NCBI GenBank assembly: GCA_026005015.1
Contig: BPKG01000001.1
Location: 625,501 to 689,500, forward strand
DNA: 64,000 nucleotides
DNA from: Burkholderiales bacterium
GTDB taxonomy: Bacteria > Pseudomonadota > Gammaproteobacteria > Burkholderiales > UBA6910
Direction: 5' to 3'
Below, one piece after another: positions 22,349 to 45,893 of the stretch (positions within the stretch are counted from its first letter, which is position 1; each line of letters opens with the position of its first letter). The translations under genes and the position numbers were made by a program. A model generated the notes under the pieces. The model did not search any database and was not told the DNA's origin. It saw nothing but the letters and a program-made list of their open reading frames with translations.

Positions 22349-23713
22349 TCACGCCAAGGGCAAGGCCAAGGTGAAGACCGCGCCCCCTTCAGGATGATTG
22401 GCGGCGCAAAGCCGCCCCCCGTGACGCTCGACGATGCCGTAGCTGATGGACAGCCCCAACCCCGTGCCCTTGCCCACCGGCTTGGTGGTAAAAAACGGGT
22501 CGAACACGCGGGGAAGGTACTGTTCGGGAATGCCGGGGCCGTTGTCGTGGAAAGCGATCTCGATGCGGCCGTCCTTCGCCCGGCCCGTGATCTCCAGCCG
22601 CGCATTCTCTTTCCTGCCGACGCTGTCGACCGCGTTTTGCACGAGATTGACGATCACCTGCTGCATCTGGCCCGCGGAGCCCATGACCGGGATCTCGGGC
22701 GGAACGTCCATCACGACCTGCAGGTGGGTGCCCGAAGCCTTGATCACCCAGCGCACCGACCGCTCCAGGACTTCCCGGAGGTTAAAGCGCACGTTTTCAT
22801 TGCTGTCCGCAGCGGAAAAGCGTTTCAGGGCATCGACGATGTCGCGGGTGCGCTCGGCGCCCTCGATAGTGCCTTCGATCAGGGGGTTCAAGTCCTCCAG
22901 GATCCGATCGATGCGCAGGCTGCGGCGCAGCTCGGCGAGTCTGGCCTCGGGCGCACCGGCATGCACGGCTTCCAGATAGGTCCAGAGGCGGCCGACATAG
23001 CGCTTGAGGGCATGCACATTGCCCAGGACGAAGCTGATGGGATTGTTGAGCTCGTGGGCCACCCCGGCCACCAACAGGCCCAGAGAGGCCATTTTCTCCG
23101 AATGCACCAACTGCTGCTGGGTACGTTTCAAGTCCTCATGCGCTTCCCGCAATGCTTGATAGGCGCGCTTGAGTTCCCCCACCGGGCGCCCCACCAGCAC
23201 CATGCCCACCGCCTTGCCCACCGTGTTGTAGCGAGGCGTCCAGTTCACAGCGACCGGGATCGCCGTGCCATCGGTCGCCCGGAACTGCAGCTCGCAATCC
23301 GTCAGGCCTTCCCCGTGGAGGTGGTGAATAAACTGAGCCGCCCGCTCCCGGGAAGCCTTGTCAGCGAGCAGCTCCAGCACGCACACGCCCCGCAACGCCG
23401 CGGCCTCGCGTCCCACCAGCTTGACGAGCGCGCGGTTCACCTCCTGGATCGCTCCTTTCCGGTCGCACACGATGAGGATGTCGGACATGGAAGTGAGGAC
23501 GCTGAAGAGGAACTGCTGGGTTTCCTCCAGCTCGGCGTTCTTCTGCTCCAGCGCCACCTCGTACTGCAACAGTTCGCTGTAGACCTCGTCCATCTTGCGG
23601 ATCACGTCGATCCACACGGATTCGCCGACTTCGCCGAGGTTTTCCGGAATCACGGACCGCTCGGGCAGAGCGCGCCCTGCTGTCGATCGCTCCTGTTTGT
23701 GCCGGGCCTTCAT
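22349..23713 (-). CDS. hoxJ: Hydrogen-signal sensor histidine kinase HoxJ-like
   Basis: 454 residues from the ATG at 23713, soluble. A coiled-coil N-terminal region (about 36-70) is followed by a PAS domain (about 70-185), a HisKA domain with the phospho-accepting H220 (GLLVAGVAHELNNPISF), and a HATPase domain (NLVQNAVDS; FHDNGPGIP; GTGLGLSISYGI). In Cupriavidus the regulatory hydrogenase HoxBC relays H2 to a PAS kinase HoxJ, which controls HoxA. The gene sits 10 bp after nikR and close behind hoxB-hoxC, which supports that role. No membrane segments are seen, as expected for HoxJ. Confidence 0.85.
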   Translation of the reverse strand: MKARHKQERSTAGRALPERSVIPENLGEVGESVWIDVIRKMDEVYSELLQYEVALEQKNAELEETQQFLFSVLTSMSDILIVCDRKGAIQEVNRALVKLVGREAAALRGVCVLELLADKASRERAAQFIHHLHGEGLTDCELQFRATDGTAIPVAVNWTPRYNTVGKAVGMVLVGRPVGELKRAYQALREAHEDLKRTQQQLVHSEKMASLGLLVAGVAHELNNPISFVLGNVHALKRYVGRLWTYLEAVHAGAPEARLAELRRSLRIDRILEDLNPLIEGTIEGAERTRDIVDALKRFSAADSNENVRFNLREVLERSVRWVIKASGTHLQVVMDVPPEIPVMGSAGQMQQVIVNLVQNAVDSVGRKENARLEITGRAKDGRIEIAFHDNGPGIPEQYLPRVFDPFFTTKPVGKGTGLGLSISYGIVERHGGRLCAANHPEGGAVFTLALPLA

Positions 23714-23723
23714 CGCCGGACTG

Positions 23724-24176
23724 CTAAGTCTTGGGGCGAGTGTGGAAATGTTGATGGGCGGCGTCCGCCGTCTCCAGGTCCACGGGAACGAGGTTGAGGC
23801 TACCATGGCGCACGCCGCGCTCCGCCATGACGCTTTCCGCGAACTGCCTCACCGCCGCGGTCGGGCCGCGCAGGACCACGGTCTCCAGGCAATGCTCGTG
23901 ATCCAGGTGCACGTGCATCGTCGACACGCACAAGTCGTGGTGAGCGTGCTGCTTGTGGGTCAGGCGCTCGGCGAGCTCCCGCTCGTGATGGTTGTAGATA
24001 TACGACAGGCTGGCAGTGCAAAAAGGTGCATCCCCGGAGCGCAGGCGCTGCTCTTCCAGGTGCCGGCGCAGCAGATCTCTGATCGCCTCGGAGCGATTCT
24101 GGTAGCCGCGCACCCGGATGAACTCGTCGAATTCCCGGGCAAGGCGCTCATCGAGCGAAATCGTGAAGCGTTCCAT
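23724..24176 (-). CDS. nikR: Nickel-responsive regulator NikR
   Basis: 150 residues from the ATG at 24176 (MERFTISLDERLAREFDEF). An AGGAG directly abuts this ATG with no spacer, so initiation may be unusual. An N-terminal ribbon-helix-helix domain (NRSEAIRDLLRRHLEE) is followed by a C-terminal ACT-like nickel-binding domain. The metal-site residues lie in the segment with HHDLCVSTMHVHLDHEHCLE (Ni ligands of NikR are three His and one Cys). It represses nickel uptake genes when Ni is plentiful; candidate operators are at 21174-21200 and 22200-22226. Confidence 0.95.
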   Translation of the reverse strand: MERFTISLDERLAREFDEFIRVRGYQNRSEAIRDLLRRHLEEQRLRSGDAPFCTASLSYIYNHHERELAERLTHKQHAHHDLCVSTMHVHLDHEHCLETVVLRGPTAAVRQFAESVMAERGVRHGSLNLVPVDLETADAAHQHFHTRPKT

Positions 24177-24248
24177 CTCCTGGGCTGTAATCGCTAAACT
24201 TAAGCCGCGACTCGCTCTCCACCCCCCGGCAGCCCGCCGTTTCACCTC

Positions 24249-25697
24249 CTAATGCACGGTGCATACCATGCAAGGGTCGAAGGAGCGCACCACGTGCTGG
24301 ACGGCGACGGGCACCGTTTCCCCTTCCTGCACCGGCACGCCCACCAGGGCCTGCTCCAGGGGGCCGGGCACGCCCTGCGCGTCGCGGGGTGAGAAGTTCC
24401 AGGTGGTCGGTGAAATGATTTGATAATTATGGATGCGGCCTCGCCGGACCTCCAGCCAATGGCCGAGGCTGCCGCGCGCGGATTCGGTGAGCCCGACCCC
24501 GCACCCCTCTTCCGGCACCGGCGCGTGGTGGCAGAAGGGTGCACCCGGCTCCAAGGCCCGCACCCAGGACTCCATGGCGGGAACCACCAGCGCCAGCTCC
24601 AGCAGCCGGGCGATGACCCGATTGCGCACGTTGCCGCCGCTTTGCGCCACGAGGTCCCGGATGAGGGGGTGCCCGTTCACCACTTGGCGGGCGAGCGCCC
24701 CCGTCTCCGCCACGTCGCCGTTCAGGCGCGGCGCCTTGCACCAGGAGTAAGCCTTTGGTTTCTCGGCCAAAGGCTGCGTGACCCCATGCGCAGGAGGTTG
24801 GGGCTTGGCCGGTCCTGCCATCCAGCTATGGCTGATGTCCTCGGTAATGGCGTCGACATCCAAAGGCTTGAACCCGCCCTCCCATACGCCACGGCGGAAC
24901 ATGAATCCATCCCCCTGGGAATAGGTCCCATAGCTCAGAAACCGGTCGGTCGCGCGTCCTAGCTTTTCCAGCGCCAGGTCCTGAGCGATCTCCAGGAACA
25001 GACGGAAATCGCTCGCGTCCGGCGCCCGGGCTGCCATCCAGCCTTCCAGGTCCCGGGCGCTCTCCAGGCCTGCCACGGCTTCCAGGGCATCGCCAAACAG
25101 CGTTTTCTCCAGAGACCGCCGGAACTCCCTCAGGATGCTGTAAAGCCGTATCTTCTCCCCTCCCTCCACGGGACGAGCGGAACCCCCCGGCTGGATGGAA
25201 AGCGTATGAGGCCACTTGCCAGCCATGGACCCCATGAGCGAGAGCAGCTTCGCCCGGGCTGGCAAGGCGTCGCCGGCGGCCGAGCCCTCGATGGCCTTGA
25301 AGCGCGCCTGGACGGCGGTAAACCAGGGCCGATGCCGGTAGACGTCCCTGGCAAAATCCGGCATGAAGAAAAGGTAGAAATGGGTGAAATGATCAGCCAG
25401 GTTCTCCGCAGCCAGGATGAGGTTGGTCGCCAGCCGGCCATTCTCTGGCGGTTCGAGCTTCATGAGGCTTGCCAGAGCTGAGGCCGCCGCGACCGACTGG
25501 GACACCGAGCAGATGCCGCAGATACGCGGCGCAAACACGAGCGCGTCCATGGGGTCTTTGCCGCGCAGGATCTGTTCGAAGCCGCGGTATAGGGGGGAAT
25601 TCACCCGGGCCGAACGGACTCGGCCTGCCGCGACCTCGAGGGTGACTTCGAGGTCGCCCTCCACGCGGTTAAAAGGGCCAACGACTAGCCGGCTCAT
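24249..25697 (-). CDS. hoxC: Regulatory (H2-sensing) [NiFe]-hydrogenase large subunit
   Basis: 482 residues. The NiFe site is provided by C60/C63 (APRICGICS) and C476/C479 (DPCMVCTVH). The protein ends exactly at that histidine, H482, with no cleavable C-terminal extension. That is characteristic of the HoxC/HupV regulatory type, which needs no maturation protease. It pairs with HoxB encoded 79 bp upstream. It senses H2 in the cytoplasm rather than conserving energy. Confidence 0.93.
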   Translation of the reverse strand: MSRLVVGPFNRVEGDLEVTLEVAAGRVRSARVNSPLYRGFEQILRGKDPMDALVFAPRICGICSVSQSVAAASALASLMKLEPPENGRLATNLILAAENLADHFTHFYLFFMPDFARDVYRHRPWFTAVQARFKAIEGSAAGDALPARAKLLSLMGSMAGKWPHTLSIQPGGSARPVEGGEKIRLYSILREFRRSLEKTLFGDALEAVAGLESARDLEGWMAARAPDASDFRLFLEIAQDLALEKLGRATDRFLSYGTYSQGDGFMFRRGVWEGGFKPLDVDAITEDISHSWMAGPAKPQPPAHGVTQPLAEKPKAYSWCKAPRLNGDVAETGALARQVVNGHPLIRDLVAQSGGNVRNRVIARLLELALVVPAMESWVRALEPGAPFCHHAPVPEEGCGVGLTESARGSLGHWLEVRRGRIHNYQIISPTTWNFSPRDAQGVPGPLEQALVGVPVQEGETVPVAVQHVVRSFDPCMVCTVH

Positions 25698-25776: not shown

Positions 25777-26796
25777 TCATCGGAGGCGGGTTTTGCGAAT
25801 TGCAGGCGTAATCACCTGGTGGTCGGACACTGCATTCTCCCGCACCCGCTTGGGCGTGGCCGATTTCGACAGCGACGCCAGCGCCACGAACCACGCCTTG
25901 GGCATATCCGTGGGCAATCCCACGGGAATGCCGGCGATCTTGGGCGTCTGGGCAAAGGGATGGCCCGGCTCCTCAAAGCCGGGCTCGGTGCAACTGATGC
26001 AGGCATAACCGCCGCGGGTACACGAGCCCTCTCCGTTCCACAGGCGAATGTTGCAGTCGGCATGGGCCTGGGTACCCTTGCAGCCCATGTTCTCCATCAT
26101 GCAGCCCAGGTCCGAGGGCTTCTCCGCGCTGGCCTTGAATTCGTAATACTCGTTGCGCGTGCAGCCATGGTGAACGAGATGATCGGCGTAGAAACGCGGC
26201 CGCCCCAGCGCGTCCATATCGCGCTCGGAAAAAAGGCCGAAGGCCAGGCACATGAGGGTCTCGACGACCCAGTTGGGGTGCGTCGGGCAGCCTGCGATGT
26301 TGATGACCGGCAGCCCTGATCGGGAACGATATTCCACACCGAGCAGCCCGCCGGGCTCGTCGCCCTCGTACTGGAGCCCGCAGGCGTCCGTCGGATTGCC
26401 GCCGGCCGCCGTGACCCCACCGTAGGCGGCGCAAGTCCCGACCGCGACCGTATAGCGGGCCACGCTCGCCAGCTCCCGGACCCACTGGATCATGGGGCGG
26501 CCGGTACCGGCAAGGAGGTGAAAGCGCCCGGTGCCGTTCGGGCCCCGAAGCAGCGACCCCTCCACGCACAGCGCGTCGAGCGTCACCTGACCTGACAGGC
26601 AGCGCTCCATGACTCTGGTCACTTCAACCCCCGTCTCCTCGGACAGGGAAGGGTGCCACAAGAAGCGCACGCCCGCCGAGCTCAGCATCTCGAAGAGGTT
26701 GCACGAATCGGCGCACAGCAGCGACATGGTGCAGCCTCCGCAGCCGCCCGACTGCAGCCAGAGAACGTTGATGCCTTCCGGTTTAGGGCCGATCAT
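25777..26796 (-). CDS. hoxB: Regulatory (H2-sensing) [NiFe]-hydrogenase small subunit
   Basis: 339 residues, with no Tat signal peptide, as expected for a cytoplasmic sensor. The first iron-sulfur ligands are C19 and C22 ([15 protein letters not shown]). Further ligands lie in [29 protein letters not shown], and the C-terminal cysteines of [12 protein letters not shown] and [16 protein letters not shown]. The ATG overlaps the stop of the upstream hoxA-like gene. The C-terminal extension (about 40 residues) is typical of HoxB/HupU. Confidence 0.93.
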
Positions 26797-27909
26797 TTTT
26801 TTTCCATTCCGTAACGGGCAAGCTTACTGCGCAGGCCCGCCCTGGAGAGTCCCAGCTCTCGGGCGGCCTGGGTCTTGTTCCAGCGGTGGCGGATGAGGGT
26901 TTCCTTCAGCATGCGGGCTTCCAGGATTTCCATCCGCTCCTTGAGCGTTCCGTCCAGCCGTGACAGGGTGGTGAAGGCCGCTTCGTCGGCCTCTTCCTCT
27001 GCGGCGTGAAACACCTGGGGCGAAAGCAGCTCGGCGCCAAGGCGGGGGCCTCTGGCCAAGGCCAGCATGCGCACAATCTCGTTTTCAAGCTGGCGTACGT
27101 TACCCGGCCAGCGATAGGCTTTGAGCAACGCCAGGGCCTCTTCGGTAAACCCTTCCACGGGCTTGCCCAGCGCCGCCATGGCCCGCGCCAGGATATGGTT
27201 CGCGATGAGCGGAATGTCCATCGGGCGCTCCCGCAACGCAGGCACATGGAGGGTGACCATGGCTAGACGGTAGTAAAGGTCTTCTCGAAAACGGCCCCGC
27301 CGCACCTCCTCCTGGAGGTTTCGGTTGGTGGCGGCGATCACCCTCACGTTCACGCGCAGCGTACGGCTGGAGCCCACCGGCCGGATCTCCCCGTTCTGCA
27401 GCACGCGCAGCAGCTTCACCTGAAACGCGGGTGAGGTTTCACCGATCTCGTCGAGCAATAGGGTGCCACCGTCGGCCTGCTGGAACAACCCCACTATGAT
27501 CCTCGTAGGCGCCGGTGAAGGCCCCGCGCCGGTGACCGAAGAGCTCGCTTTCCAGGAGCGGATCCGGCACCGCGCCGCAGTTTTCCACCACGAAGGCGCG
27601 GCTCGCCCGGAGGGAACGGTCATGGATGGCGCGGGCCAGCAACTCCTTGCCCGTGCCGGATTCGCCGGTGATCATGACGGAGATGTCGTACGGGGCAACC
27701 GCCTCCGCCAGCTCGCACACGGCGTTCAAGGGACTGTCCGGGGCCCGTACCAGGCGGTCCAAGTCGCCCAGGCGGTTTAGAACCTCGCCTTCAGCCTGGT
27801 GGGAACGCGCCTCCTCATCGCCCAGGCGCACGGTCGACCGTTCCGTCACCAGCGCTTCTCTCCGCTGGGGATCGACCTGCGGGCCGCGCGCTGTAACGAT
27901 CGCCTCCAT
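26793..27909 (-). pseudogene. hoxA: Receiverless, frameshifted HoxA-type sigma-54 activator
   Basis: Two overlapping frames together encode an NtrC-family activator. The first part (from ATG 27909) has the Walker A motif [19 protein letters not shown] and ends at [15 protein letters not shown]. The second part continues [19 protein letters not shown] to a Fis-type HTH ([19 protein letters not shown]). One extra base at 27495-27498 separates them; removing it gives about 371 residues. Only about 55 residues precede the AAA+ domain, so the phospho-receiver of classic HoxA is absent. The flanking genes hypB and hoxB are tightly spaced. Either a sequencing error or a genuine inactivation is possible; an intact NtrC-type regulator is at 44436-45893. 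Confidence 0.82.
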
Positions 27910-27919
27910 GCTTCGCGCC

Positions 27920-29188
27920 TTATGCAACCCCCGCGTGCGGCCTCTCGTGACGCTGACTTCGCAGCCAGCCGTACCAGGCGTCCATGCCCTCCCCTGTCTG
28001 AGCCGACACGCGCAACACCCGAATCGCAGGATTGACCTCCCGGGCAAAGGCGATGCAGCGTTCGATATCGAATTGAAGATAAGGCAGGAGATCGATCTTG
28101 TTGATGACCATGAGCTCACTCGCCTTGAACATGTGGGGGTATTTGATCGGCTTGTCCTCGCCTTCGGTCACCGACAGAATGACCACTTTGGCCTGCTCTC
28201 CCAAATCAAACAGCGCCGGACACACCAGATTGCCCACGTTTTCGATCATCACCACCGAGCCGAACGGCGGATCGAGTTCGCGCAGACCCCGCGCCAGCAT
28301 TTCAGCGTCCAGGTGGCAACCGGTTCCGGTGTTGATCTGGATCACCTTGCATCCCGTGGCTCGGATACGCTCTGCATCGTTGATTGTCGCCTGGTCGCCT
28401 TCGATTACATGGATCTGCAGCTCTTCCTTGAGATCGCGAATGGTGCGCTCCAGCAACGTGGTTTTTCCGGCACCCGGGGAGCTCATGAGGTTCAGTGCCA
28501 CCACGCCGCGCCCCGCGAGCCATCCCCGATTGCGTTCGGCGAGCAACCGGTTTTTAGCAAGGACTTCTTCCTCAAGCTCCATGGTGCGGGTGTGCCCTTT
28601 AGCCTGGCCCCCGATCGCCTGACCGTCCGGCACGGGCCCGTGAGCATGTTCATGGGCGTGGTCATGGGCATGATCGTCGGGATGATCGTGTCCGTGGCCG
28701 CGAAAGGCATCGCGATCATGCGTGTGCCCGTGATCGTGCGCGATCCCCAGGGCATGGGCGCGGTCATGCTCCGCTTTGCTCAGCGTGATCGCCTTTCCCG
28801 TTGCCGGATCCGTCAGAGTGATTGTCTCTGTGTCTGAACAGCCGCAGGTCATGCACATTCCGTCCACCTCCATCTCTTTGATTTTCAGCTCCTCTCCGGC
28901 AATCAGCTCGAGGCTCGAGCTGCCACACGGACAACGGCCGAAGGGTTCGGCAAGCGCCATCTCACCGCCGCAGCTTCGGCAAATGGCCCGCCCCGGCACC
29001 TCGATGATTTCCAGTTCTGCGCCCTCGGCCGGCGTGCCCCTTGCGCACACATCGAAACAAAACCGCACTGCATCGGGCATCACGGCCGACAGCTTGCCGA
29101 TTTCCAAGGTCACGCGCAGGACCTTCGCGCCCCGGGCCTGTTCGCTCACGATCGCGACGATGCTGCGGGTGATGCCGAGCTCATGCAC
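27920..29188 (-). CDS. hypAB: HypA-HypB fusion, nickel insertion factors in one frame
   Basis: 422 residues from a GTG start ([11 protein letters not shown]), preceded by GAGGAG. Residues 1-110 are HypA: nickel-binding MHE start and a zinc site C70-x2-C73 with C86-x-C88, ending KIKEMEV. With no stop codon the frame runs into HypB at residue 111 (MCMTCGCSD). HypB has a His-rich metal store (about 140-175), P-loop [20 protein letters not shown] and NKIDLL. HypA and HypB normally are separate proteins that deliver Ni to the hydrogenase large subunit. A GGAGG at 28867-28871 lies 8 nt before the HypB ATG at 28858, so HypB could also be made alone. Confidence 0.92.
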
Positions 29189-29204
29189 GTCTTGCGTCTC
29201 CTCG

Positions 29205-30293
29205 CTAGCAGATTCTCGGCAGTTGTTCGCCCACCAGCATGTCAACGATGCGCTCGCCGCCGAACACGGTCTGCAGAACCACCACGCCCGCCTGTTCGCC
29301 GGTCACTTCTCCGATCACCGCTGCGTGCTCGCCCGCTGGATGGGCGCGCATGGCCGCCAGCACGCGCTGCGCCGCTTCAGCCGGCACCACGGCCACCAGC
29401 TTTCCCTCATTCGCCAGATAAAGCGGGTCGAGGCCCAGAATCTCGCACGCGCCCTTCACTTCCTGGCGCAGCGGCAGCGCTGCCTCCCGAACGCGGATCG
29501 TGACCCCGGAGCTCTGCGCGAACTCGTTCAGCACGGTCGCCACGCCGCCCCGGGTCGCGTCGCGCAGGCAGTGGAGATCGGGACATGCCCTCAACATGGT
29601 CTCCACCAGTCCGTTGAGCGGTTGGCAGTCGCTTGCAATCTGGGTTTCAAGCGCCAGCTCGTTGCGGGCGACCAGGATTGCCGTGCCATGATCCCCCAGG
29701 TAGCCGCTCACGATGACCGCGTCGCCCGGGCGGGCGTTGCGTGCGGAAATCGATATCCCTTCCGGAACGACGCCGATCCCGGCCGTGTTGATGAAGAGCT
29801 TGTCCGCCGCGCCTCGTTCCACCACCTTGGTGTCACCGGTGACAATGTAAACGCCCGCCTGTTCTGCGGTGCGCTTCATGCTCGCCACGACGCGGCGCAG
29901 CGTCTCCACCGGTAGCCCCTCCTCCATGACGATTCCGCAGGACAGAAACAGCGGCTTTGCCCCGCTCACCGCGAGATCGTTGACCGTGCCCGCCACCGCC
30001 AGCGTGCCGATGTCGCCGCCGGGAAAAAACAAAGGATTGACGACGAAGGTGTCGGTGGTGAAGGCGAGGCGATCGCCGTGGGAAGCGAGCTCCGAAAGCG
30101 CAACCACCGCCTGGTCTTCCAGGGCGGCGAGCACAGGGTTATCGAACGACCCGACGAACACGTCTTCGATGAGATCCCGCATCGCTTTGCCGCCGCTGCC
30201 GTGGGCGAGCGTGATGTGCGAATCGCGAAGCCTGCCGCGCTTGCGCAAGCCCCCTTCGATCACCCGGACGGTGGCTTCAGCCCGATCGCTCAT
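29205..30293 (-). CDS. hypE: Hydrogenase maturation protein HypE
   Basis: 362 residues from the ATG overlapping the hypD stop. PurM-like domains are present (ITLAHGSGGKAMRDLIEDVF; DLAVSGAKPLFLSCG; LRDATRGGVATVLNE). The protein ends in PRIC, the invariant C-terminal cysteine that carries the carbamoyl/cyano group transferred to iron. It works with HypF, HypC and HypD to build Fe(CN)2CO. Confidence 0.97.
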   Translation of the reverse strand: MSDRAEATVRVIEGGLRKRGRLRDSHITLAHGSGGKAMRDLIEDVFVGSFDNPVLAALEDQAVVALSELASHGDRLAFTTDTFVVNPLFFPGGDIGTLAVAGTVNDLAVSGAKPLFLSCGIVMEEGLPVETLRRVVASMKRTAEQAGVYIVTGDTKVVERGAADKLFINTAGIGVVPEGISISARNARPGDAVIVSGYLGDHGTAILVARNELALETQIASDCQPLNGLVETMLRACPDLHCLRDATRGGVATVLNEFAQSSGVTIRVREAALPLRQEVKGACEILGLDPLYLANEGKLVAVVPAEAAQRVLAAMRAHPAGEHAAVIGEVTGEQAGVVVLQTVFGGERIVDMLVGEQLPRIC

Positions 30294-36103: not shown

Positions 36104-36105
36104 CG

Positions 36106-37524: not shown

Positions 37525-38538
37525 TCAAAGCCGACTCGCACGCCCATCGCCATTGCCGCGACGGGCCGACTGATCGGCAAGCTCCTGCTCGATCTCCGCC
37601 AGTGCCTCTTCCACGACGGCTGCGCTTCCAACTTGATTCAGGCTTAAAAAAATGCGCCGCGCCTCCTCATAGAGTTCCTGCGCCCGGAGAAGATTGGCAC
37701 GACGCCCGGAACCGGGGTTTTCAAGATCATCGGGAAGATTTCTGAGCACGTTGGCTTTGTTTGAAATGGTATTGGCATATTCCAGAGGCGTGTCGCGGGC
37801 GTTGCGGACCTTGAGCGCCTCATCGTAGGCGGCAAGCGCGCGCAAGTTGTTTTCCAGCGGATGGCCGGAGGCGGCATATTGCAGCGCGTTGCCGAGGTTG
37901 TTCTGAACCATTGCGTATTCGGTCGGATGATCGACCAGGTTGATGACCTTGAGGACCTCTTCGAACGACTGAACGGCCAGCGCCTCGCGCATTTTGCCGC
38001 GCTCGTCCGACAGCGGAATCGACAAATAGGCAATCGCCAAGTTATTGTGGAGAATGGCGTATTCCTGGGGGTACGCGTCGCGGGTGAAGACTTTCAAGGC
38101 TGCGTGATAGCACCGGATCGCCTCTTGGATGCGGGCCGCGCCGGCGCTGGAGAGCGACTGCAGCACCAGCCCCAGGTTCATTTCCGCTTCCGCAACCTCT
38201 TCCGTCCGCCCCTTCTCCTTGAGGACGGGGATCGCCTCTTCATAGCACGCCCGGGCCCGATGGAGCGCGTCGACACCGCCATCGGGCAATGCCTGTAAGG
38301 CCGTGCCCATGCGGGCGCGCAGCCGGGCCCTGAGCAAGACCGCCTCAGCGGGACAGAGGTCGAGCGCGCGCTCGTAGAGCGCGACGGCGTGCTGCAACTG
38401 ATCCGGGGTTTTCGGCCGCATCTGCATGCCCATGGCAATTTCCATGAGCATTTCGGCCTTCTCCTCCGGCGTCCCCGCCGCCGACTCCGCCGCCTGAATG
38501 GCGGCCTTGAATTGGGACGCCGCCATGGTCTGCGCCAT
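37525..38538 (-). CDS. Tetratricopeptide-repeat protein of the hydrogenase operon
   Basis: 337 residues, cytoplasmic, with AGGAGG 5 nt before the ATG. Repeating helical pairs with TPR-like spacing are visible: LQHAVALYERALDLCP, RARACYEEAIPVLK, AIRCYHAALKVF, LRALAAYDEALKV and RAQELYEEARRIF. It probably mediates protein interactions or assembly of the hydrogenase. It has a strong sigma-70-like promoter of its own (38582-38610), so the downstream accessory and hyp genes may be expressed independently of the hydrogenase structural genes. Confidence 0.85.
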   Translation of the reverse strand: MAQTMAASQFKAAIQAAESAAGTPEEKAEMLMEIAMGMQMRPKTPDQLQHAVALYERALDLCPAEAVLLRARLRARMGTALQALPDGGVDALHRARACYEEAIPVLKEKGRTEEVAEAEMNLGLVLQSLSSAGAARIQEAIRCYHAALKVFTRDAYPQEYAILHNNLAIAYLSIPLSDERGKMREALAVQSFEEVLKVINLVDHPTEYAMVQNNLGNALQYAASGHPLENNLRALAAYDEALKVRNARDTPLEYANTISNKANVLRNLPDDLENPGSGRRANLLRAQELYEEARRIFLSLNQVGSAAVVEEALAEIEQELADQSARRGNGDGRASRL

Positions 38539-38636: not shown

Positions 38637-39005
38637 TTACACTCCCTGAGATTTCGCCAAGTTGGACAGGACCAGGGCGGCCGCCTCGGGGCTCCACTGG
38701 GCAAGGACGACATGCTGTTGAAAATCTTCAGCAAAACCGTTTTCCCGGAAAAACTCCTGAGCGTGAACCACCCGGTCTCCCCGGGCATTGCGCGTCTTGA
38801 CCAGCAATCCCCCGGCAGACCCGGGCACCAAGGGGATGACCAGGATCTTGTCTTCCCGGGCGACGAGCGCAACCGTCTGAGCGCCGGCAAAGTAAAGGTC
38901 GTACATCTCCCGCGGCAAATAGAGGCTGCCCCGACAGATGGAAACGGCCCTCTGCGGCCGATCAGCTTCAACAAGGCCGGCGGGATCAGGCTTCCGCGTA
39001 TTCAT
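38637..39005 (-). CDS. AbrB/SpoVT-like small protein of the hydrogenase operon
   Basis: 122 residues. The core SICRGSLYLPREMYDLYF followed by VALVAREDKILVIPLVPG has the strand-turn-helix-strand pattern of AbrB-type proteins. This resemblance is a reading by eye and not certain. It overlaps the protease gene by 20 bp, so it is co-translated. The C-terminal part (VVHAQEFFRENGF, AQWSPEAAALVLSNLA) is not recognised. A regulatory role or a hydrogenase-assembly role is possible. Confidence 0.6.
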   Translation of the reverse strand: MNTRKPDPAGLVEADRPQRAVSICRGSLYLPREMYDLYFAGAQTVALVAREDKILVIPLVPGSAGGLLVKTRNARGDRVVHAQEFFRENGFAEDFQQHVVLAQWSPEAAALVLSNLAKSQGV

Positions 39006-39459
39006 CGATCATCTGCTCAAGGTCAGCGATCACCTTCTGCGCCGACAGGCGCACCGGCTCGCTCAGTTCCAGGCCAAAATCGAGGCGAGCCGCCTCGATC
39101 AGGTACACGGTCACATCGGTCGGGAAGTCTTCGCGAAAGAGCCGCTTTCCTGCGGCCAGCGCATGGTCCCAGCGGAAATCGTGCAAGGTGTATCCAGGCT
39201 CGTGATCGGAAGCCAGCTCGCTTCCTGGCACCTGGAAGATGGCGCCGGCCTCGGATCCGGTCCTGGCTGCATCGACGATGACCAGTTTGCGCGTGCCCCG
39301 GGCCTGGAACATCACCTCCATTCCGCCGGTCCCGGCGTCGAACACGCGCACATGGTCACGTGGCCGCTCGACAAGATAGGCCTGCAACGACCGGGCGACG
39401 AACACACCCACGCCGTCGTCGCTGCGAACCGGATTGCCACAACCGATGATCGTGAGCAT
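38986..39459 (-). CDS. [NiFe]-hydrogenase maturation endopeptidase
   Basis: 157 residues of the HyaD/HupD/HybD fold. The start IIGCGNPVRSDDGVGVFVA holds the conserved nickel-binding aspartate. A second site lies in VFDAGTGGMEV, and TLHDFRWDHALAAG carries the conserved histidine. It removes the C-terminal tail of the large subunit after nickel insertion. Only one such gene is present, which matches one large subunit with a tail (41322-42917) and one without (hoxC). Confidence 0.93.
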   Translation of the reverse strand: MLTIIGCGNPVRSDDGVGVFVARSLQAYLVERPRDHVRVFDAGTGGMEVMFQARGTRKLVIVDAARTGSEAGAIFQVPGSELASDHEPGYTLHDFRWDHALAAGKRLFREDFPTDVTVYLIEAARLDFGLELSEPVRLSAQKVIADLEQMIDEYAEA

Positions 39460-39622: not shown

Positions 39623-39937
39623 TTAGATGCGCCACAGCCGGCACGACCACTTCGGCCTCACCGGGATTTGCAATTCCGGCAGCTCGCAGAACTGCCGATG
39701 AATGACGAAATACATACAGGTCTCGCAGGCTTGTTCAATCTCTCCGCCAGCACCATAAGGCTGGCTGGTAAAACCGGCGACCTTGAGCTTGGAGACATAA
39801 TCGTCAGGCCGGATCGCCTGTAGTCGCGCCACGATACGGTTGACCTCCTCGCTGGTATAAGCGCGCTCCCGCCATTCCGTCTCCAGCCCTTGTTGAAGGA
39901 GATGCTCCAGCTCGCGCCGCAAGGCTTCCTCATCCAT
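39623..39937 (-). CDS. Four-cysteine HiPIP-like small protein A
   Basis: 104 residues from the ATG at 39937. The N-terminal 50 residues are helical; the C-terminus carries cysteines at 71, 74, 84 and 99 in C-x2-C-x9-C-x14-C, followed by RLWRI. The pattern, with PELQIPV between the third and fourth Cys and a tryptophan next to the last Cys, recalls high-potential iron-sulfur proteins (C-x2-C-x14-16-C-x13-14-C). The second spacing is shorter and there is no Tat signal. It is a close paralogue of the 104-residue protein encoded just upstream. Alternatively it could be a zinc-binding domain. Confidence 0.75.
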   Translation of the reverse strand: MDEEALRRELEHLLQQGLETEWRERAYTSEEVNRIVARLQAIRPDDYVSKLKVAGFTSQPYGAGGEIEQACETCMYFVIHRQFCELPELQIPVRPKWSCRLWRI

Positions 39938-39991: not shown

Positions 39992-40306
39992 TCAGATCCG
40001 CCATAAGCGGCACCACCAATCCGGCTCCACCGGCAGATTAAGCTCCGGCAGATCGCACCATTTCCGATGGACCAGGTAGTACATGCACTCCTGGCAGCGC
40101 ATCTTGTCCTCGCCGTAGGGATGATCTACAAATCCTGCCAGCACCAGCTTGCCTTTCAGGTCATCTGCGGGAAGCTCACGCAGCGCTGCCAGCAACTCCC
40201 CGAACTGCCGGTCATTCTCGGGAAAAGGCTCTGTTTGGGTCTCCAGCCCATCAGCCAGCATCCGCGCGATCTTGGCACGCAGTTGGTCTTCCTCGTCGCG
40301 TCGCAT
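39992..40306 (-). CDS. Four-cysteine HiPIP-like small protein B
   Basis: 104 residues, the same length as protein A, with cysteines at the same positions (71, 74, 84, 99): CQECMYYLVHRKWC, then LPELNLPVEPDWWCRLWRI. Shared positions include CMY, HR, LPEL, PV, W and CRLWRI. It has an acidic N-terminus and no signal peptide. It lies between ompW and protein A in the group 1h hydrogenase operon. A soluble iron-sulfur electron carrier for the hydrogenase is a plausible guess, untested. Confidence 0.75.
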   Translation of the reverse strand: MRRDEEDQLRAKIARMLADGLETQTEPFPENDRQFGELLAALRELPADDLKGKLVLAGFVDHPYGEDKMRCQECMYYLVHRKWCDLPELNLPVEPDWWCRLWRI

Positions 40307-40628: not shown

Positions 40629-41216
40629 CTAAAACTTCATCCCCACCCCGGCCCCGATGATCCACGGGTCGATTTTCAAGTCGGTAAGCGGCGCCCCTGC
40701 CGAATTGACATCGGTCCTGATGAAAACCTTCTTTAAGTCGAGATTGAAGGAAAAGCGCTCATTCAAGGCGACATCGAACCCCACCTGCAACGCCGCTCCC
40801 CAGCTCTCCTTGTCCAGGGACAGCGGCGAGGCAAGGTTCACGTCGTGAAAACGAGTATAGTTGATACCAGCCCCCACATAAGGGCTGAACGGCTGGCCGG
40901 GCGTAAAGTGGTACTGCAGCAGGAGCGTGGGCGGCAGCACCTTGACCGAACCCAGGGGAGCGCCGTTCAGGCTCACGTTGAATTTCCTATCGGTTGCGAC
41001 CAGCTCCAGCGCCAGATGGTCGGTCAAAAAGTAGCTGACATCCACTTCTGGAGCGACTTCCGAGCTCACATCCAGACCGGGCAGGGATGAGTCCACATCC
41101 GGGTTGATGGAGAGCAGCCGGACACGACCCAACCAATCCCCAGCGCCCGCATCGGCGGAAGTCGTCGAAGCCGCCAGCAAAGCGGCCACAATGCTCAAGC
41201 TCCATCGCTTGTTCAT
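40629..41216 (-). CDS. ompW: OmpW-family outer membrane protein
   Basis: 195 residues from the ATG at 41216, behind GAGGAG. A signal peptide (cleavage near TSADAGA) is followed by an eight-stranded OmpW barrel: DHLALELVATDRKFNV, PFSPYVGAGINYTRF and the C-terminal DPWIIGAGVGMKF ending in Phe. OmpW proteins admit small hydrophobic compounds. Its place 105 bp after the hydrogenase large subunit gene is unusual. Confidence 0.93.
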   Translation of the reverse strand: MNKRWSLSIVAALLAASTTSADAGAGDWLGRVRLLSINPDVDSSLPGLDVSSEVAPEVDVSYFLTDHLALELVATDRKFNVSLNGAPLGSVKVLPPTLLLQYHFTPGQPFSPYVGAGINYTRFHDVNLASPLSLDKESWGAALQVGFDVALNERFSFNLDLKKVFIRTDVNSAGAPLTDLKIDPWIIGAGVGMKF

Positions 41217-41257
41217 GAGAGTCTCCTCCTGAGTTGGTCTGATTTCTTGCGCCAACA

Positions 41258-41284
41258 CCCACCCGCCCGCCGCGGGCGGGTGGG
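41258..41284. other. Very stable GC hairpin between hydrogenase large subunit and ompW
   Basis: CCCACCCGCCCGC (41258-41270) and GCGGGCGGGTGGG (41272-41284) are perfect inverted repeats of 13 bp. There is no T-run on either side, so it is more likely an mRNA-stabilising or attenuating element than a classic terminator. Confidence 0.65.
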
Positions 41285-41321: not shown

Positions 41322-42917
41322 TCAGGCCGTACGGAAACGGGCGAGCTCCTTGCCCGTCTTGGCATCGTGGGCGTGCACGGTGCACACGAGGCAGGAGTCG
41401 AAAGACCGGGCCACATGTCCCACTTCGACGGGGTCGGTGGGATCGGCAATCGGTGCGCCGATCAACGCTTCCTCGATCGGCCCCCGGTTGCCTTGAGCGT
41501 CCCGCGGGCCCACGTTCCAGGTCGTCGGGGCGATGATCTGGTAGTTCTTGATTTTGCCGTCCTTGATTTCAATCCAGTGGCATAGCGCGCCGCGAATCGC
41601 CTCGGTCGCCCCCCAACCACGCCCATCCTTCTCTTTGGGCTTGATGTACCAGGGTTCGTTCAAGCGGAATTCCCGCAGGCAGCGCTCGGCCTGGCGATAG
41701 AGCTTGACCGTCTCGTGCATGCGGGCGATCTGCCTCAGATGGAGACTCGGCCCACCCATCTTCTTGAACATGTCCAGGATGAGCCCATCGTAATGCTGCC
41801 AAGATTCGCCGTGCTTGCCGCCCGCGATCAACTGACGGGCGAACGGTCCAGCCTCCAGGCGACCGAATTCGGAATGCAGTACCGCGGTATCCCAGGTGTA
41901 CTTGCCAGAGAAGTCGGTGTTGTTCTTCTGGATCGGGCGAGTGACCCGGTCGAACGGATGGACATCGGTCGGGCCCTCTTCGTACCAGGCGTGGACGGTA
42001 TTTTCACGAACCTTATCCTGGGTCATCAGCACGTGCCGGTCGGTCTTGCTGTCGTAGACACCGCTCTTCATGATGACCGCCGCATTGCGACCTTCGATCG
42101 TCGGCTTCTGGTACTTATCCTCGTGCGGCAGATAACCCCAGGAGACGTACTTGCCCACGCCCCCGCCGTATTTGTCCAGCCCGATATCAAGTCCCATGCG
42201 CCAGTAGAATCCCAGGTCTGAATTGGCGTGCGCCGGGCTCTCGTCCAGCCATGCCAGAAAGTCCTCGTAGGTCTTGATCTCTTCGTAACGCTCCAACGAG
42301 CAGCCGAGCCAGACCGGCTCGAGCCAGTTATTCTTGAAATACTCGAGGATCGACCAGGCGCGGGTGATATCGGCCAAGGTCGGGGCGCACATGACGCCGC
42401 CCGGCACCATGTAACTCGAGTGGGGCCACTGCCCGCCGAGCAGCGCATAGATCTCCACGGGCTTGCCCGAAATGGTGACCCCGATCTCGTAGGATCGGCC
42501 CGTGAAGGGCGCAAAGCGTTTGACGGCCTCTTCGTAGAACTTGCTGTTGCGGTACTTCTTGTTGGTCAGGTCGATCGCATACAGACCATAAAAGTAGCGG
42601 GGATTGCTCTGCAAGCTCTCGACGATCTGCCCCAGGTTGCGCGCCAGAATGGCGTTGCGTGGAACCTCGGTCTGCCAGGCCGTGTCCAGGGCCCAGGCGG
42701 CGCAGGTCAAGTGCGAAGCGCCGCAGATGCCGCAGGCCCGCGGCGTCACCACCAGGCCGGCTTGCGGGTCCTTGTCACGCAGAATGATTTCGAATCCGCG
42801 AAACAATTCCGCCTGGGTCCAGGCATTGACCACCACCCCGTTGTCGATGTCCACCCGAACGTCCAGGTCGCCCTCAACGCGCCCGACCGGCGAGATGTCC
42901 AGCGTTTGTACTGCCAT
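41322..42917 (-). CDS. hhyL: Actinobacterial-type (group 1h/5) [NiFe]-hydrogenase large subunit
   Basis: 531 residues. NiFe ligands are C62/C65 (TPRACGICGASHL) and C509/C512 (DSCLVCTVH). A 16-residue tail follows H515 (AHDAKTGKELARFRTA) and would be cleaved by the endopeptidase. The RACGICG motif, the tail and the lack of a Tat-bearing partner fit the actinobacterial-type uptake hydrogenases studied in Streptomyces, mycobacteria and Cupriavidus, several of which oxidise H2 at atmospheric levels. Subgroup assignment is by motif recognition. Affinity for H2 cannot be read from sequence. Confidence 0.9.
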   Translation of the reverse strand: MAVQTLDISPVGRVEGDLDVRVDIDNGVVVNAWTQAELFRGFEIILRDKDPQAGLVVTPRACGICGASHLTCAAWALDTAWQTEVPRNAILARNLGQIVESLQSNPRYFYGLYAIDLTNKKYRNSKFYEEAVKRFAPFTGRSYEIGVTISGKPVEIYALLGGQWPHSSYMVPGGVMCAPTLADITRAWSILEYFKNNWLEPVWLGCSLERYEEIKTYEDFLAWLDESPAHANSDLGFYWRMGLDIGLDKYGGGVGKYVSWGYLPHEDKYQKPTIEGRNAAVIMKSGVYDSKTDRHVLMTQDKVRENTVHAWYEEGPTDVHPFDRVTRPIQKNNTDFSGKYTWDTAVLHSEFGRLEAGPFARQLIAGGKHGESWQHYDGLILDMFKKMGGPSLHLRQIARMHETVKLYRQAERCLREFRLNEPWYIKPKEKDGRGWGATEAIRGALCHWIEIKDGKIKNYQIIAPTTWNVGPRDAQGNRGPIEEALIGAPIADPTDPVEVGHVARSFDSCLVCTVHAHDAKTGKELARFRTA

Positions 42918-42947
42918 GATTGCGCCTCCTCAGATGTCTGGAACTTG

Positions 42948-43910
42948 TTAAACCACAAAGATGTCCTGCTCAGCCCACGCGGGCGCGGCGTTTTTCGCCG
43001 CACCGGTCAGCGCGATGTAGCCCTTCTTGTCGACACCGGCGGGCAGATCCTTGGGAATGCCCATGACGGTCTGGGTTTTGAACACGGTGCCCGGCGCCAG
43101 GTCGAAGAACGGGAACTCCGGTTCGGTGCACCCCAAGCACGGCATTCCAGCGCGGGTCTTGGAGGACTGTCGGTTCCACAGGATCCGGTTGCAGGGGGAG
43201 TGCGTCATCGGCCCGCGGCAGCCGAGATCGTAGAACAGGCATCCCTTCCGCTGCCCGAACTCGGTCGCGGAAACCTTGTAGGCAAAGTGCATGTTGCGGG
43301 TGCAGCCGGTCTGGGTGAAGCTCTGGAAAAAGGTCTTGGGTCGCTGCAGGTCGTCCAAAGAAATGTCCTTGGCGCGGCCCGTGGCGACCGCGACCAGGAT
43401 CTGGGTGACCCAATCGGGGTGGGCCGGACAGCCTGGAATATTGATCACAGGCAGCCCCGACTTCGCCCGGAAGTCCTTGCCCAGGAATCCGCCATGCTGA
43501 CGCTTCAGAAACTGCAGTCCCTGGGACTCGCTGGGGTTCGGTGCCGTCGCCGGGATGCCCCCCCACGTGGCACAGTCGCCGATCGCGACGACAAACTGGG
43601 CGGCATCGGCAAGCTCCCGCACCCACTGCTTCATCGGCCGTCCGGCAAAGCGGTTCCATTCGCCGGTGCCGTTGGGGGCGTTCACGACGGTGCCCTCGAA
43701 GACGAAAATGTCGAGAGGAATCGCGCCGGACACGCAATCGCGCAGGATCTTCTGGAGATTGTCTCCCAACTCCAGACCCAGCGACGGATGCCAAAGGATA
43801 TTGATCCCGAAGTCCGTGACCAGGTCACAGGCGCTGGGCTCCTCGGCGTTCAGAAACGACATCGTATTTCCGGAACACGCGCCTCCTTGCAGCCAGAGCA
43901 GGTTGGCCAT
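42948..43910 (-). CDS. hhyS: Actinobacterial-type (group 1h/5) [NiFe]-hydrogenase small subunit
   Basis: 320 residues, with GGAGGAG before the ATG and no Tat signal or C-terminal anchor, so it is cytoplasmic. The N-terminal cluster motif is GGACSGNTMSFL: C12 is present, but the usual second Cys of CxGC is replaced (CSGN). C28-D29 follow (PSACDL). Loss of the second Cys fits the family, in which the proximal cluster is reported to use three Cys and one Asp. Other ligands are in GDCATWGG, NIPGCPAHPDW, TGCTRNMHF, GCRGPMTHSPCN and CLGCTEPEFPF. It starts 78 nt after the predicted sigma-54 transcription start. Confidence 0.92.
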   Translation of the reverse strand: MANLLWLQGGACSGNTMSFLNAEEPSACDLVTDFGINILWHPSLGLELGDNLQKILRDCVSGAIPLDIFVFEGTVVNAPNGTGEWNRFAGRPMKQWVRELADAAQFVVAIGDCATWGGIPATAPNPSESQGLQFLKRQHGGFLGKDFRAKSGLPVINIPGCPAHPDWVTQILVAVATGRAKDISLDDLQRPKTFFQSFTQTGCTRNMHFAYKVSATEFGQRKGCLFYDLGCRGPMTHSPCNRILWNRQSSKTRAGMPCLGCTEPEFPFFDLAPGTVFKTQTVMGIPKDLPAGVDKKGYIALTGAAKNAAPAWAEQDIFVV

Positions 43911-43999
43911 CTTGAAGCTCCTCCTTCGGTTGATGGTTGGGTGAGTTGGGCGTGCGCGTCAGCGGCGCTGCTGAATCGCACGCTTCACTTCGTGCCACA

Positions 44000-44014
44000 G
44001 CAACGCCCGTGCCA
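44000..44014 (-). promoter_or_regulatory. Sigma-54 promoter of the hydrogenase operon
   Basis: On the minus strand TGGCAC (44009-44014), N5, TTGC (44000-44003), with GG and GC ten bases apart: a perfect -24/-12 element. Transcription would begin near 43988, in front of hhyS. An NtrC-family activator gene lies directly upstream. Confidence 0.85.
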
Positions 44015-44176
44015 ACTTGACCGAAGTACGGACGACTGGCTTTTTATCAACGAATTAGGAACAGCGACGTGAACCGCCGCGGGCGGTGTTCGAAGGATAA
44101 GACTGCAAACCCTCTTTACAGCGGCTATGCAGTCGCAAGCGCAATTTACGACGTGGGGACAGGGTTTTTGGGGTGC

Positions 44177-44425
44177 CTACCCCTTGCGATTGCCGCAAAC
44201 CGGACACTCGGCCTCCAAGGTGTAGCCAAACCAGATCCCCTGGCATCGGCTGCACCAGTGGCCATTGGTTTGTTCCACCGTCAGGCCCAGCTGGCGCGCA
44301 AGCGGTGTGACGCCGAGATCTTTAAAGCCGCCGGGCGTCGCGGGCGGGTTGGTGCGGGAGTAGGGAAAAGGATAAGTCTTTGCCGGAGCGCTTCGGTCAG
44401 GCGGGTCGTCTCGGTCTTCGGACAT
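44177..44425 (-). CDS. Small zinc-ribbon protein (82 residues)
   Basis: From the ATG at 44425, the acidic, proline-rich N-terminus is followed by two CxxC pairs (WCSRCQGIWFG and ECPVCGNRKG) typical of a zinc ribbon or rubredoxin-like knuckle. It starts 10 bp after the NtrC-type regulator gene, in the same direction, and ends before the sigma-54 promoter. The family is unknown to me. Confidence 0.75.
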   Translation of the reverse strand: MSEDRDDPPDRSAPAKTYPFPYSRTNPPATPGGFKDLGVTPLARQLGLTVEQTNGHWCSRCQGIWFGYTLEAECPVCGNRKG

Positions 44426-44435
44426 GGACAGCCTC

Positions 44436-45893
44436 CTATTGGGCACCCGATTTATCCAACTTGTATCGCTTAATCTTGTTGGCCAAGCCGACGCGGGAAA
44501 TACCCAACTCCCGCGCCGCCCGGCTGTAGTTCCATTTATGCTTGAGCAGCGACTGAGAGACCAGATGCATCTCCAGCGCCTCGACTTTTTCCTTCAGCGT
44601 TCCTTTTTCCAACAAGAAAGCAGCCCGTCCATTGTCGGGCTTGGCCGGGAGCAGCTTGGCAAGCTCCGGCGACATGTGCTTGACGGACAGGATCTCCCCG
44701 TCTTCAGCCACGGCGACCATGCGCCGCATTTCGTTCTCGAGCTCCCGCACGTTGCCCGGAAAAGGATAGAGCTTCAGGCGCTGCAGCACCTCGTTCGAGA
44801 TTCCCGCGATGTTCCGATTGATCGACTTGGCGTACTTCTTCGCCGCGTGTTCCGCCAGCACCGGAATATCTTCCACCCGTTCGCGCAAAGGCGGAATGTT
44901 CAGCTCGAAGCCCCGCAGGCGATAATAGAGGTCCTGACGGAACTTCTTCTGTTCAACCAGCTCCTTCAACGGCCGGTTTGACGCGGCAATGATGCGGACG
45001 TTGCAGTGCCGGGTCTGATCCGACCCCAGGGGCTTGACCTCGCCTTCCTGAAGGAACCTCAACAAGCTCACCTGAAAAGACGGCGACACTTCGGAGATCT
45101 CGTCAAGGAACACGGTGCCGCCATCGGCTGCGGGGAAAAGCCCCAGGCGGTCGCTGATGGCGCCGGTAAAGGCGCCTCGTTTGTGCCCAAACAATTCCGA
45201 GTGCAGCAATTCGTCGGGCAGAGCGCCGCAGTTTTGTGCCAGAAAAGGAAAGGCCTTTCGAGCGCTGAAGAAATGCACCGCTCGAGCCATCAGCTCCTTT
45301 CCCGTCCCGGTCTCGCCCTGGATCAAGACCGGCAGGTCAGTGGCAGCTGCCTGGCGCGCCAAGTTGCAAACTTCCACCATCTTGTCGCTGGCGAACACCA
45401 GTTTGTCGAATTCGTAGGTGTCCTGGAGCAGCTTGACCATGTGGTCGTTCTGCCGCCGCAGCACGTCGTCGCTGAACTTGAGCTCCCTGCTCAGGTAGCG
45501 GTGACGCCGGGCGAGCTCGCGGCTTTCAAGCGCCCGCTTGATGAGGAGCAGAAGATGGTCAGGCTGCCATGGCTTGGAGACAAACTGGTATATCGCCGCC
45601 TCGTTGATGGAACGGATGATATCGTCGGGGTCCGTGTATCCGGTAATCAGGACGCGAATGACCTCCGGATGGGACACCCGCGCCTCCCGAAAGAACTCGA
45701 CCCCGGTCATGTCGGGCATACGCTGGTCGCACAACACCAGGTCGACTTCCTCCCGGTTCAAGATTTCCAGCGCCTCCCGCGCAGAGGCTGCTGTGAGCAC
45801 TCGGTAGTCCTCTTCCAGGCAGCGCGTCAATGATGCCCGGACCTGGGCCTCGTCATCGACGACCAGAACCGTCCAAAAGCCGTCGGACTGCAT
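44436..45893 (-). CDS. NtrC-family sigma-54 response regulator (HoxA-type)
   Basis: 485 residues. The receiver domain (about 7-120) has D13/D14 and phospho-acceptor D56 (LVLCDQRMPD). The AAA+ domain has Walker A QGETGTGKELMARAV, the sigma-54 contact loop GAFTGA and Walker B GGTVFLDEISE. A Fis-type HTH follows (NYSRAARELGISRVGLANK). It is intact, unlike the hoxA-like gene at 26793-27909. It is next to a sigma-54 promoter of the group 1h hydrogenase, which is its likely target. HoxJ is the probable kinase, by context. Divergent from pldA. Confidence 0.92.
   Translation of the reverse strand: MQSDGFWTVLVVDDEAQVRASLTRCLEEDYRVLTAASAREALEILNREEVDLVLCDQRMPDMTGVEFFREARVSHPEVIRVLITGYTDPDDIIRSINEAAIYQFVSKPWQPDHLLLLIKRALESRELARRHRYLSRELKFSDDVLRRQNDHMVKLLQDTYEFDKLVFASDKMVEVCNLARQAAATDLPVLIQGETGTGKELMARAVHFFSARKAFPFLAQNCGALPDELLHSELFGHKRGAFTGAISDRLGLFPAADGGTVFLDEISEVSPSFQVSLLRFLQEGEVKPLGSDQTRHCNVRIIAASNRPLKELVEQKKFRQDLYYRLRGFELNIPPLRERVEDIPVLAEHAAKKYAKSINRNIAGISNEVLQRLKLYPFPGNVRELENEMRRMVAVAEDGEILSVKHMSPELAKLLPAKPDNGRAAFLLEKGTLKEKVEALEMHLVSQSLLKHKWNYSRAARELGISRVGLANKIKRYKLDKSGAQ

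Follow-up and report, generated by a model that had tools for sequence, protein, structure and literature searches.

A group 2a (Huc-class) hydrogenase operon joined to an H2 sensor in a Burkholderiales genus, with a probable route of control through the operon's own regulator

Introduction

What does an H2 sensor control in a genome where no membrane-bound hydrogenase (MBH) is found, and through which regulator might it act? The question is raised by a 64 kb stretch of a Burkholderiales genome (contig BPKG01000001.1; hereafter the window, from an assembly labelled G000 that is 95% complete), in which the regulatory hydrogenase (RH) HoxBC and its histidine kinase HoxJ stand in one run with the structural, accessory and hyp genes of another NiFe hydrogenase, HupSL. 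This run is headed by the gene for an NtrC-type regulator, here called 2aReg, and also carries a hoxA gene without its receiver domain (hoxA′). In Cupriavidus necator H16, unphosphorylated HoxA is an activator, and its phosphorylation by HoxJ without H2 inactivates it (PMC10073562; here and below, papers given by PMC number are cited from excerpts).

A preliminary description, made from the sequence alone, had seen an uninterrupted minus-strand run with HoxBC, HoxJ, an NtrC-type regulator and the Hyp factors, and had proposed an H2 sensor acting on a possibly trace-H2-scavenging hydrogenase of 'group 1h/5'. Its account of the run is borne out, as every assignable gene from 45893 to 22349 has minus-strand orientation, with neighbours that overlap or lie no more than 525 bp apart, and all of these factors were assigned by domain or homology matches; hoxA′ (26793–27909), nikR (23724–24176) and an ompW-family gene (40629–41258) had been missed. 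The idea of H2-sensor control also gains comparative support from a sister genome of the same genus (G001, 98% complete) and from more distant relatives. However, the enzyme belongs to group 2a, and the route would run through 2aReg rather than HoxA, because HoxA no longer has the target domain for phosphorylation by HoxJ, while 2aReg has kept a complete receiver.

Results

The energy hydrogenase belongs to group 2a

Both HupSL subunits are much closer to the Huc hydrogenase of Mycobacterium smegmatis, the closest solved structure to each, than to the group 1h enzyme HofKG. The best PDB match of HupL is Huc with 643 bits, compared with only 137 bits for HofG, and HupS gives 550 bits with the Huc small subunit and 120 bits with HofK. 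In a tree of 39 rows (29 of them HupL), which has very long outgroup branches and no row for Huc and was used for class membership only, the window HupL groups with its cyanobacterial and Nitrospira counterparts in the group 2a clade (100/100), apart from C. necator HoxC, HoxG and HofG. A contig scan found 190 relatives of HupL, and with the best 80 of these, which were kept, the window protein shares 79–87% identity by best segment; 64 are cyanobacterial and 16 come from proteobacteria, Nitrospirota and Acidobacteria. The operon also carries the CSGN motif in HupS, a maturation protease gene and NHL and Rieske partner genes, operon features of the kind named in PMC7784904. The energy hydrogenase is thus group 2a (Hup/Huc), and the large subunit at 41322–42917 lies outside group 1h. 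That an actinobacterial-type group 1h enzyme stands under RH control here, as first proposed, is hardly conceivable; genes for NifU-family and SIS proteins and for HypF-C-D-E-A-B do adjoin HofG in H16 as well, but the bit scores of both subunits and the tree rule this class out.

With PF00374, the only NiFe large subunits found in G000 and G001 were HupL and HoxC (FeFe hydrogenases were not part of the search), so no MBH is available as a target of RH–HoxJ, and another NiFe hydrogenase as the real target, which the preliminary description had not seen within reach, can be set aside. Recycling of nitrogenase-derived H2 was also rejected, as no nifH match in G000 rose above the cut-off and three weak ones fell below it. 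RuBisCO is present in G000, and autotrophy is therefore possible; the match (C4:275010–275934) is split between two frames, possibly by an indel error. Trace-H2 uptake by the window enzyme is plausible by analogy, because group 2a relatives from several bacteria are reported to oxidise atmospheric H2 (PMC7784904; PMC9381531), with a Km(app) of 32 nM in one case (PMC9381531). Of 399 genomes drawn from the order, 29 matched HupL at E 1e-60 or better, the two of this genus at 100% and the other 27 at 33–42%, a distribution that fits acquisition of the operon by the genus. Order-mates also hold other group-2-like large subunits (L158–L163; 37–42% to HupL), which make up a clade of their own adjoining group 2a.

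The receiver domain is gone from HoxA but complete in 2aReg

The HoxA receiver domain, including the phospho-acceptor Asp, is absent in both the window and G001, and for want of it HoxA would be out of HoxJ's reach. The gene begins 10 bp past hypB, at the linker that trails the receiver, and overlaps hoxB; its G001 product matches H16 HoxA at 60% over H16 residues 160–482, with the AAA+ and helix-turn-helix (HTH) domains intact. It groups in the HoxA clade (100/100), closest to that of G003, a genome of the same family, in one tree (85/89) and without a resolved position inside the clade in the other. In the window the frame is also broken by one extra base near 27495, outside any homopolymer and absent in G001. 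This base and another near 28863, which fuses hypA to hypB, may be assembly indel errors; all further indels that separate the two genomes in 27 kb are intergenic, except for one in a run of A where hoxA and hoxB overlap, which argues against assembly error. Both assembly error and gene decay are possible causes of the hoxA frameshift.

Receiver-bearing hoxA genes occur in G003, G002, G038, G027 and G023 (the alignment of the G002 gene is in two pieces). G003 has the same sensor genes behind an MBH cluster, hypX and a hoxA with receiver, and this MBH-hyp-hypX-hoxA-hoxBC-hoxJ regulon (L123, L122) is likely the ancestral state for the family. Where G003 has its MBH-hyp-hypX part, the window and G001 have the group 2a operon. 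As judged from gene order, this is best read as a module swap, in which a group 2a operon would have been attached to the regulatory genes of a classical MBH/RH hox regulon.

The 2aReg receiver is complete, with D13, D14, D56, T84 and K107, and 2aReg and HoxA form sister clades, each with 100/100. Receivers were compared in 19 rows of head regulators and 13 of HoxA type (H16 entered twice), without the copies of L009, L012 and L040, while L007, L122 and L124 yielded no row. The full set of five residues (D, D, D, T/S, K) is found in only 4 of the 19 head regulators, those of the window, G001, G707 and Solimonas aquatica; the other 15 lack at least one residue and mostly several. The HoxA-type receivers are complete in 12 of 13 rows, the exception being hoxA′. 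Group 2a operons commonly have a regulator of their own: of 17 non-cyanobacterial loci, 11 carry one upstream of hupS and three more have it on the opposite strand behind the accessory genes, 14 in all; the remaining three loci are incomplete.

In the full-length tree the 15 degenerate regulators form one group (96/96). When the receiver was left out of the alignment, the degenerate regulator of a Rhodocyclaceae genome (G068/L013) moved among the intact ones, in a four-member clade (95/92) whose three members with HoxJ keep the receiver, while G068/L013, where searches for HoxC and HoxJ came up empty, has lost it. A single receiver loss was therefore rejected in favour of two or more as the likelier history, and receiver decay may itself have produced the single grouping in the full-length tree.

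The H2 sensor is conserved

HoxB, HoxC and HoxJ are homologous along their full length to the C. necator H16 proteins (identities in Table 1). HoxC places with the HoxC clade and terminates at CTVH without a C-terminal extension, and I62, F110 and Q67 are the same as in H16, residues that we take to be marks of a group 2b H2-sensing hydrogenase. HoxJ, the only histidine kinase open reading frame (ORF) in the window by motif, has Gly where H16 HoxJ has its inactivating Ser422 (PMC10073562), and more likely starts at 23713, 10 bp past nikR, than at the listed ORF start of 23806. On these sequence grounds, HoxBC is a genuine group 2b regulatory pair with its partner kinase alongside. A nikR gene between hoxC and hoxJ is also seen in G002, G027 and G071.

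The genes hoxB, hoxC and hoxJ are undisrupted in both G000 and G001. Between the two genomes, synonymous and nonsynonymous changes number 23 and 5 in hoxJ, 17 and 5 in hoxC, and 11.5 and 4.5 in hoxB; the ratios of nonsynonymous to synonymous rates (dN/dS) of 0.07, 0.10 and 0.13 respectively are within the range of the operon's other genes, from which HypAB was excluded because its frames differ between the genomes. The gene for 2aReg has six synonymous changes and no nonsynonymous one, and hupL has 25 and two. In hoxA′, eight changes of each kind give a dN/dS of 0.35, the weakest constraint among the regulatory genes. These substitutions show that the sensor genes are conserved and the receiver-less hoxA less so.

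Intact receivers coincide with hox linkage

HoxJ was searched for in 16 genomes or records, for plasmid records on the plasmid alone. It was found in G707, G061, G071, G063, G064 and W01, and was not found in G068, G069, G060, G070, G073 or the plasmid records W02–W06. In G707, of the Solimonas order, the order is hypB-hoxA-ompW-hoxB-hoxC, then the group 2a operon from 2aReg, hupS and hupL to its own hypB, and then hoxJ; in Solimonas aquatica DSM 25927 it is MBH-...-hypAB-hoxA followed by 2aReg-hupSL, with hoxBC and hoxJ on a different contig. The sensor lies approx. 60 kb from HupL in G063 and G064 and, by record coordinates, approx. 80 kb in W01; in G071 it is on other contigs, and contig ends limit this comparison (2aReg, HupL and HoxC on three contigs).

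The linkage count took in three intact lineages and 10 degenerate ones (L008, L010, L011, L013, L014, L015, L020, L021, L119 and L205; for L010, L011 and L021 the genome was searched for HoxC only). Five plasmid rows (L192–L195 and L206) were excluded because the plasmid alone was searched. The group 2a operon stands beside hox genes in 3/3 intact and 0/10 degenerate lineages (Fisher p 0.0035), and HoxJ or HoxC is merely present in 3/3 and 3/10 (Fisher p 0.07), both tests having been framed after the linkage had been noticed and taking no account of relatedness. As G071, G063, G064 and W01 have HoxJ together with a degenerate 2aReg, a HoxJ encoded away from the operon is not enough.

A sigma-54 promoter-like site precedes hupS

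The site TTGGCACGGGCGTTGCT at 43999–44015 contains the sole match to TGGCACN5TTGCW in the 64 kb, where 0.16 are expected (14 of 100 shuffles hold at least one match). Fifteen group 2a loci were scored, the near-copies G001 and L012 among them, and in 14 (L021 fails) the best sigma-54-like site upstream of hupS had a p value of at most 0.03 against mononucleotide shuffles. The best site lies 57–141 bp from hupS in 13/15 loci, at 201 bp in L017 and at 325 bp in L008; in L010 it is tied with a more remote one. The G707 site is TGGCACCTCCTTTGCA, and in most of the scored relatives the sites are weaker than the full-consensus one of the window. The region upstream of hoxK in G003 scored no better than chance (p 0.135). 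A common enhancer palindrome upstream of hupS was discarded, none with exact 7-bp arms being conserved. Gaps of 10, −4, 79, 72 and 10 bp separate the genes from hypB to hoxJ, and no sigma-70-like promoter was found in 22000–32000; with this arrangement, read-through from the hup operon into hoxA′-hoxBC-nikR-hoxJ is plausible.

Organisation of the run

The regulator gene and hupSL are followed by ompW, small conserved proteins, the maturation protease, a tetratricopeptide repeat (TPR)-like protein, the NifU-Rieske and NHL proteins, hypF, hypC, a SIS protein, hypD, hypE, hypA, hypB, the hoxA remnant, hoxB, hoxC, nikR and hoxJ (Table 1). Beyond hoxJ stand a NicO permease gene and then a TonB receptor gene. 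OmpW-family genes adjoin hydrogenase structural or sensor genes in four lineages at differing positions: in the window, in L122 (4251–4856), in L213 (2912–3427) and in L006 (12383–12835 and 13886–14494).

Table 1. Features of the hydrogenase run and their positions in the window
Feature	Position	Strand	Basis or remark
2aReg, NtrC-type regulator at head of group 2a operon	44436..45893	-	Pfam Response_reg, Sigma54_activat, HTH_8 (receiver, AAA+, Fis-type HTH)
Sigma-54 (-24/-12) promoter-like site upstream of hupS, TTGGCACGGGCGTTGCT	43999..44015	-	pattern match
hupS/hucS, group 2a small subunit	42948..43910	-	550 bits with small subunit of Huc; shares Huc's CSGN motif
hupL/hucL, group 2a large subunit	41322..42917	-	Huc match and tree; 16-residue C-terminal extension past CTVH
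OmpW-family outer-membrane protein gene, within operon	40629..41258	-	
Small conserved group 2a operon protein (orf39992)	39992..40306	-	match in 17/17 non-cyanobacterial 2a loci
Small ORF	39658..39933	-	sister genome has diverged second orf39992 copy there (L120: 41% match)
Hydrogenase maturation protease	38986..39459	-	TIGR00072
Conserved group 2a operon protein	38637..39005	-	match in 17/17 non-cyanobacterial 2a loci
TPR-like protein	37525..38538	-	weak Pfam TPR_12/SNAP, below cut-off; match in 12/17 non-cyanobacterial 2a loci
NifU-Rieske protein (HucE-like)	36106..37011	-	Pfam NifU and Rieske
NHL-repeat protein	34889..36232	-	Pfam NHL
hypF	32490..34994	-	TIGR00143
hypC	32199..32474	-	Pfam HupF_HypC
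SIS-domain (GmhA-like) protein	31456..32145	-	
hypD	30290..31459	-	TIGR00075
hypE	29205..30500	-	TIGR02124
hypA and hypB, one ORF through one extra base near 28863	27920..29245	-	separate frames in sister genome
hoxA without receiver domain (hoxA′)	26793..27909	-	open over 374 aa in G001; extra base near 27495 breaks frame in window
hoxB, regulatory hydrogenase small subunit	25777..26796	-	78.5% to H16 HoxB
hoxC, regulatory hydrogenase large subunit	24249..25697	-	58.4% to H16 HoxC
nikR, nickel-responsive repressor	23724..24176	-	NCBIfam PRK02967.1 above its cut-off
hoxJ, PAS histidine kinase	22349..23713	-	54.9% to H16 HoxJ
NicO-type nickel permease	21186..22049	-	Pfam NicO

Discussion

Taken from the gene arrangement and the receiver comparison, it is rather probable that RH–HoxJ now controls the Huc-class hydrogenase through the operon's own regulator 2aReg. 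Without H2, HoxJ would phosphorylate 2aReg at D56 and so keep it inactive; H2 at the HoxBC sensor would silence HoxJ, and unphosphorylated 2aReg would then activate the sigma-54 promoter upstream of hupS. This promoter would drive hupSL and the accessory and hyp genes and, by read-through, hoxA′-hoxBC-nikR-hoxJ, giving a feed-forward loop in which the receiver-less HoxA would contribute at most an H2-blind basal level. The polarity is carried over from C. necator by homology to HoxA and HoxJ, and we infer the phosphotransfer from HoxJ to 2aReg, the co-transcription and the H2 affinity. By the same scheme, degenerate 2aRegs would be permanently active, which could fit the apparently constitutive expression reported for the group 2a enzyme of N. 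moscoviensis (PMC9381531) and the kinase-less HupR of Acidithiobacillia.

Several points weigh against control through 2aReg. Its receiver is just 50% identical to that of H16 HoxA, so that recognition by HoxJ is not assured. Only three lineages have intact receivers and these are closely related to one another, and the linkage was noticed before it was counted, with a p value that is not phylogeny-corrected. In four genomes or records a degenerate 2aReg occurs alongside HoxJ. The indel errors that this assembly may contain are a further weakness. Within 22000–32000 there are 12 terminator-like sites, compared with 7.4 expected, and weak sigma-54-like sites lie ahead of nikR and the nickel permease gene.

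It is also conceivable, though on the whole unlikely, that RH–HoxJ survives as a relic of a regulon whose MBH was lost and that the operon is expressed regardless of H2, as reported for N. moscoviensis or M. smegmatis. The loss of the HoxA receiver in both genomes and of the frame in one, the relaxed constraint on hoxA′ and the descriptions of an apparently constitutive enzyme in the former species (PMC9381531) and of substrate-independent Huc expression in the latter (PMC13289019) all speak for a relic, but the intact and constrained hoxB, hoxC and hoxJ of both genomes do not, nor does the complete receiver of 2aReg in a family where 15 of the 19 compared are incomplete. The receiver-less HoxA itself could drive the operon: freed from HoxJ, it would act as the main activator and leave the operon permanently on, like the C. 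necator HoxA(D55A) variant that is described as always active (PMC10073562). Its intact AAA+ and HTH domains in G001 and its position, close behind hypB and overlapping hoxB, suit such a role; we consider it improbable, given the broken frame in the window (unless this is an assembly error) and the operon-borne regulators of 14 of the 17 non-cyanobacterial group 2a loci. Another genomic kinase could likewise partner 2aReg, since the kinase motif search in this genome covered the window, and 2aReg might then answer to some other signal, for example redox or starvation, with the neighbouring RH–HoxJ a coincidence. Thirteen 2aReg loci, some of them extending less than 1.3 kb upstream, showed no kinase-like ORF by motif, and a partner kinase elsewhere would therefore be encoded apart. 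This explanation appears very improbable, given that the motif turned up no histidine kinase ORF in the window besides HoxJ and that intact receivers coincide with hox linkage in all three lineages.

Known systems share parts of this arrangement. The MBH/RH hox regulon of C. necator H16 (HoxKG, HoxA, HoxBC and HoxJ) has the same order hyp-hoxA-hoxB-hoxC-hoxJ-nickel permease with a homologous sensor, kinase and regulator, whereas the window run is without MBH, hypX and the HoxA receiver and has as output a group 2a enzyme with its own Hyp set and regulator. The group 2a operons of Nitrospira, Burkholderiales and Alphaproteobacteria have the same core order from regulator to hyp genes in most loci, with small differences, but their receivers are degenerate and the fetched loci show no kinase by motif and no adjoining HoxC. 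In Acidithiobacillia, a one-component sigma-54 regulator, HupR, likewise stands beside group 2 hupSL; the HupT kinase is reported absent in all those compared (PMC12194929), in contrast with the HoxJ and HoxBC of the window run. G707 and Solimonas aquatica DSM 25927 also have a complete 2aReg receiver and a group 2a operon among hox genes but, unlike the window, keep a hoxA that aligns at full length and an MBH-type large subunit. Huc expression in M. smegmatis is described as under catabolite control and independent of H2, since the substrate is always present, with signals and regulators not yet identified (PMC13289019), whereas the window operon sits with an H2 sensor. Among the matches listed in the open PMC literature, as far as their excerpts go, no paper places a group 2a hydrogenase under an RH.

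A wider and more tentative possibility, which we hold to be doubtful, is that group 2a operons descend from, or repeatedly docked onto, an H2-sensor hox regulon, that the receiver decays once the operon leaves it, and that this genus and the Solimonas-order bacteria keep the coupling, HoxJ having been handed wholly from HoxA to 2aReg in the genus. If so, decay of the receiver would make a system once induced by H2 into a scavenger of trace gas that is expressed at all times, and in the genus H2 itself would induce a hydrogenase of the high-affinity class. Intact and degenerate receivers within one regulator family also form a natural series on how a two-component switch gets disconnected. To H2-independent Huc expression, a Huc-class operon controlled by an H2 sensor would be a direct counter-example, to be tested, and for such trials there is a named strain, Solimonas aquatica DSM 25927.

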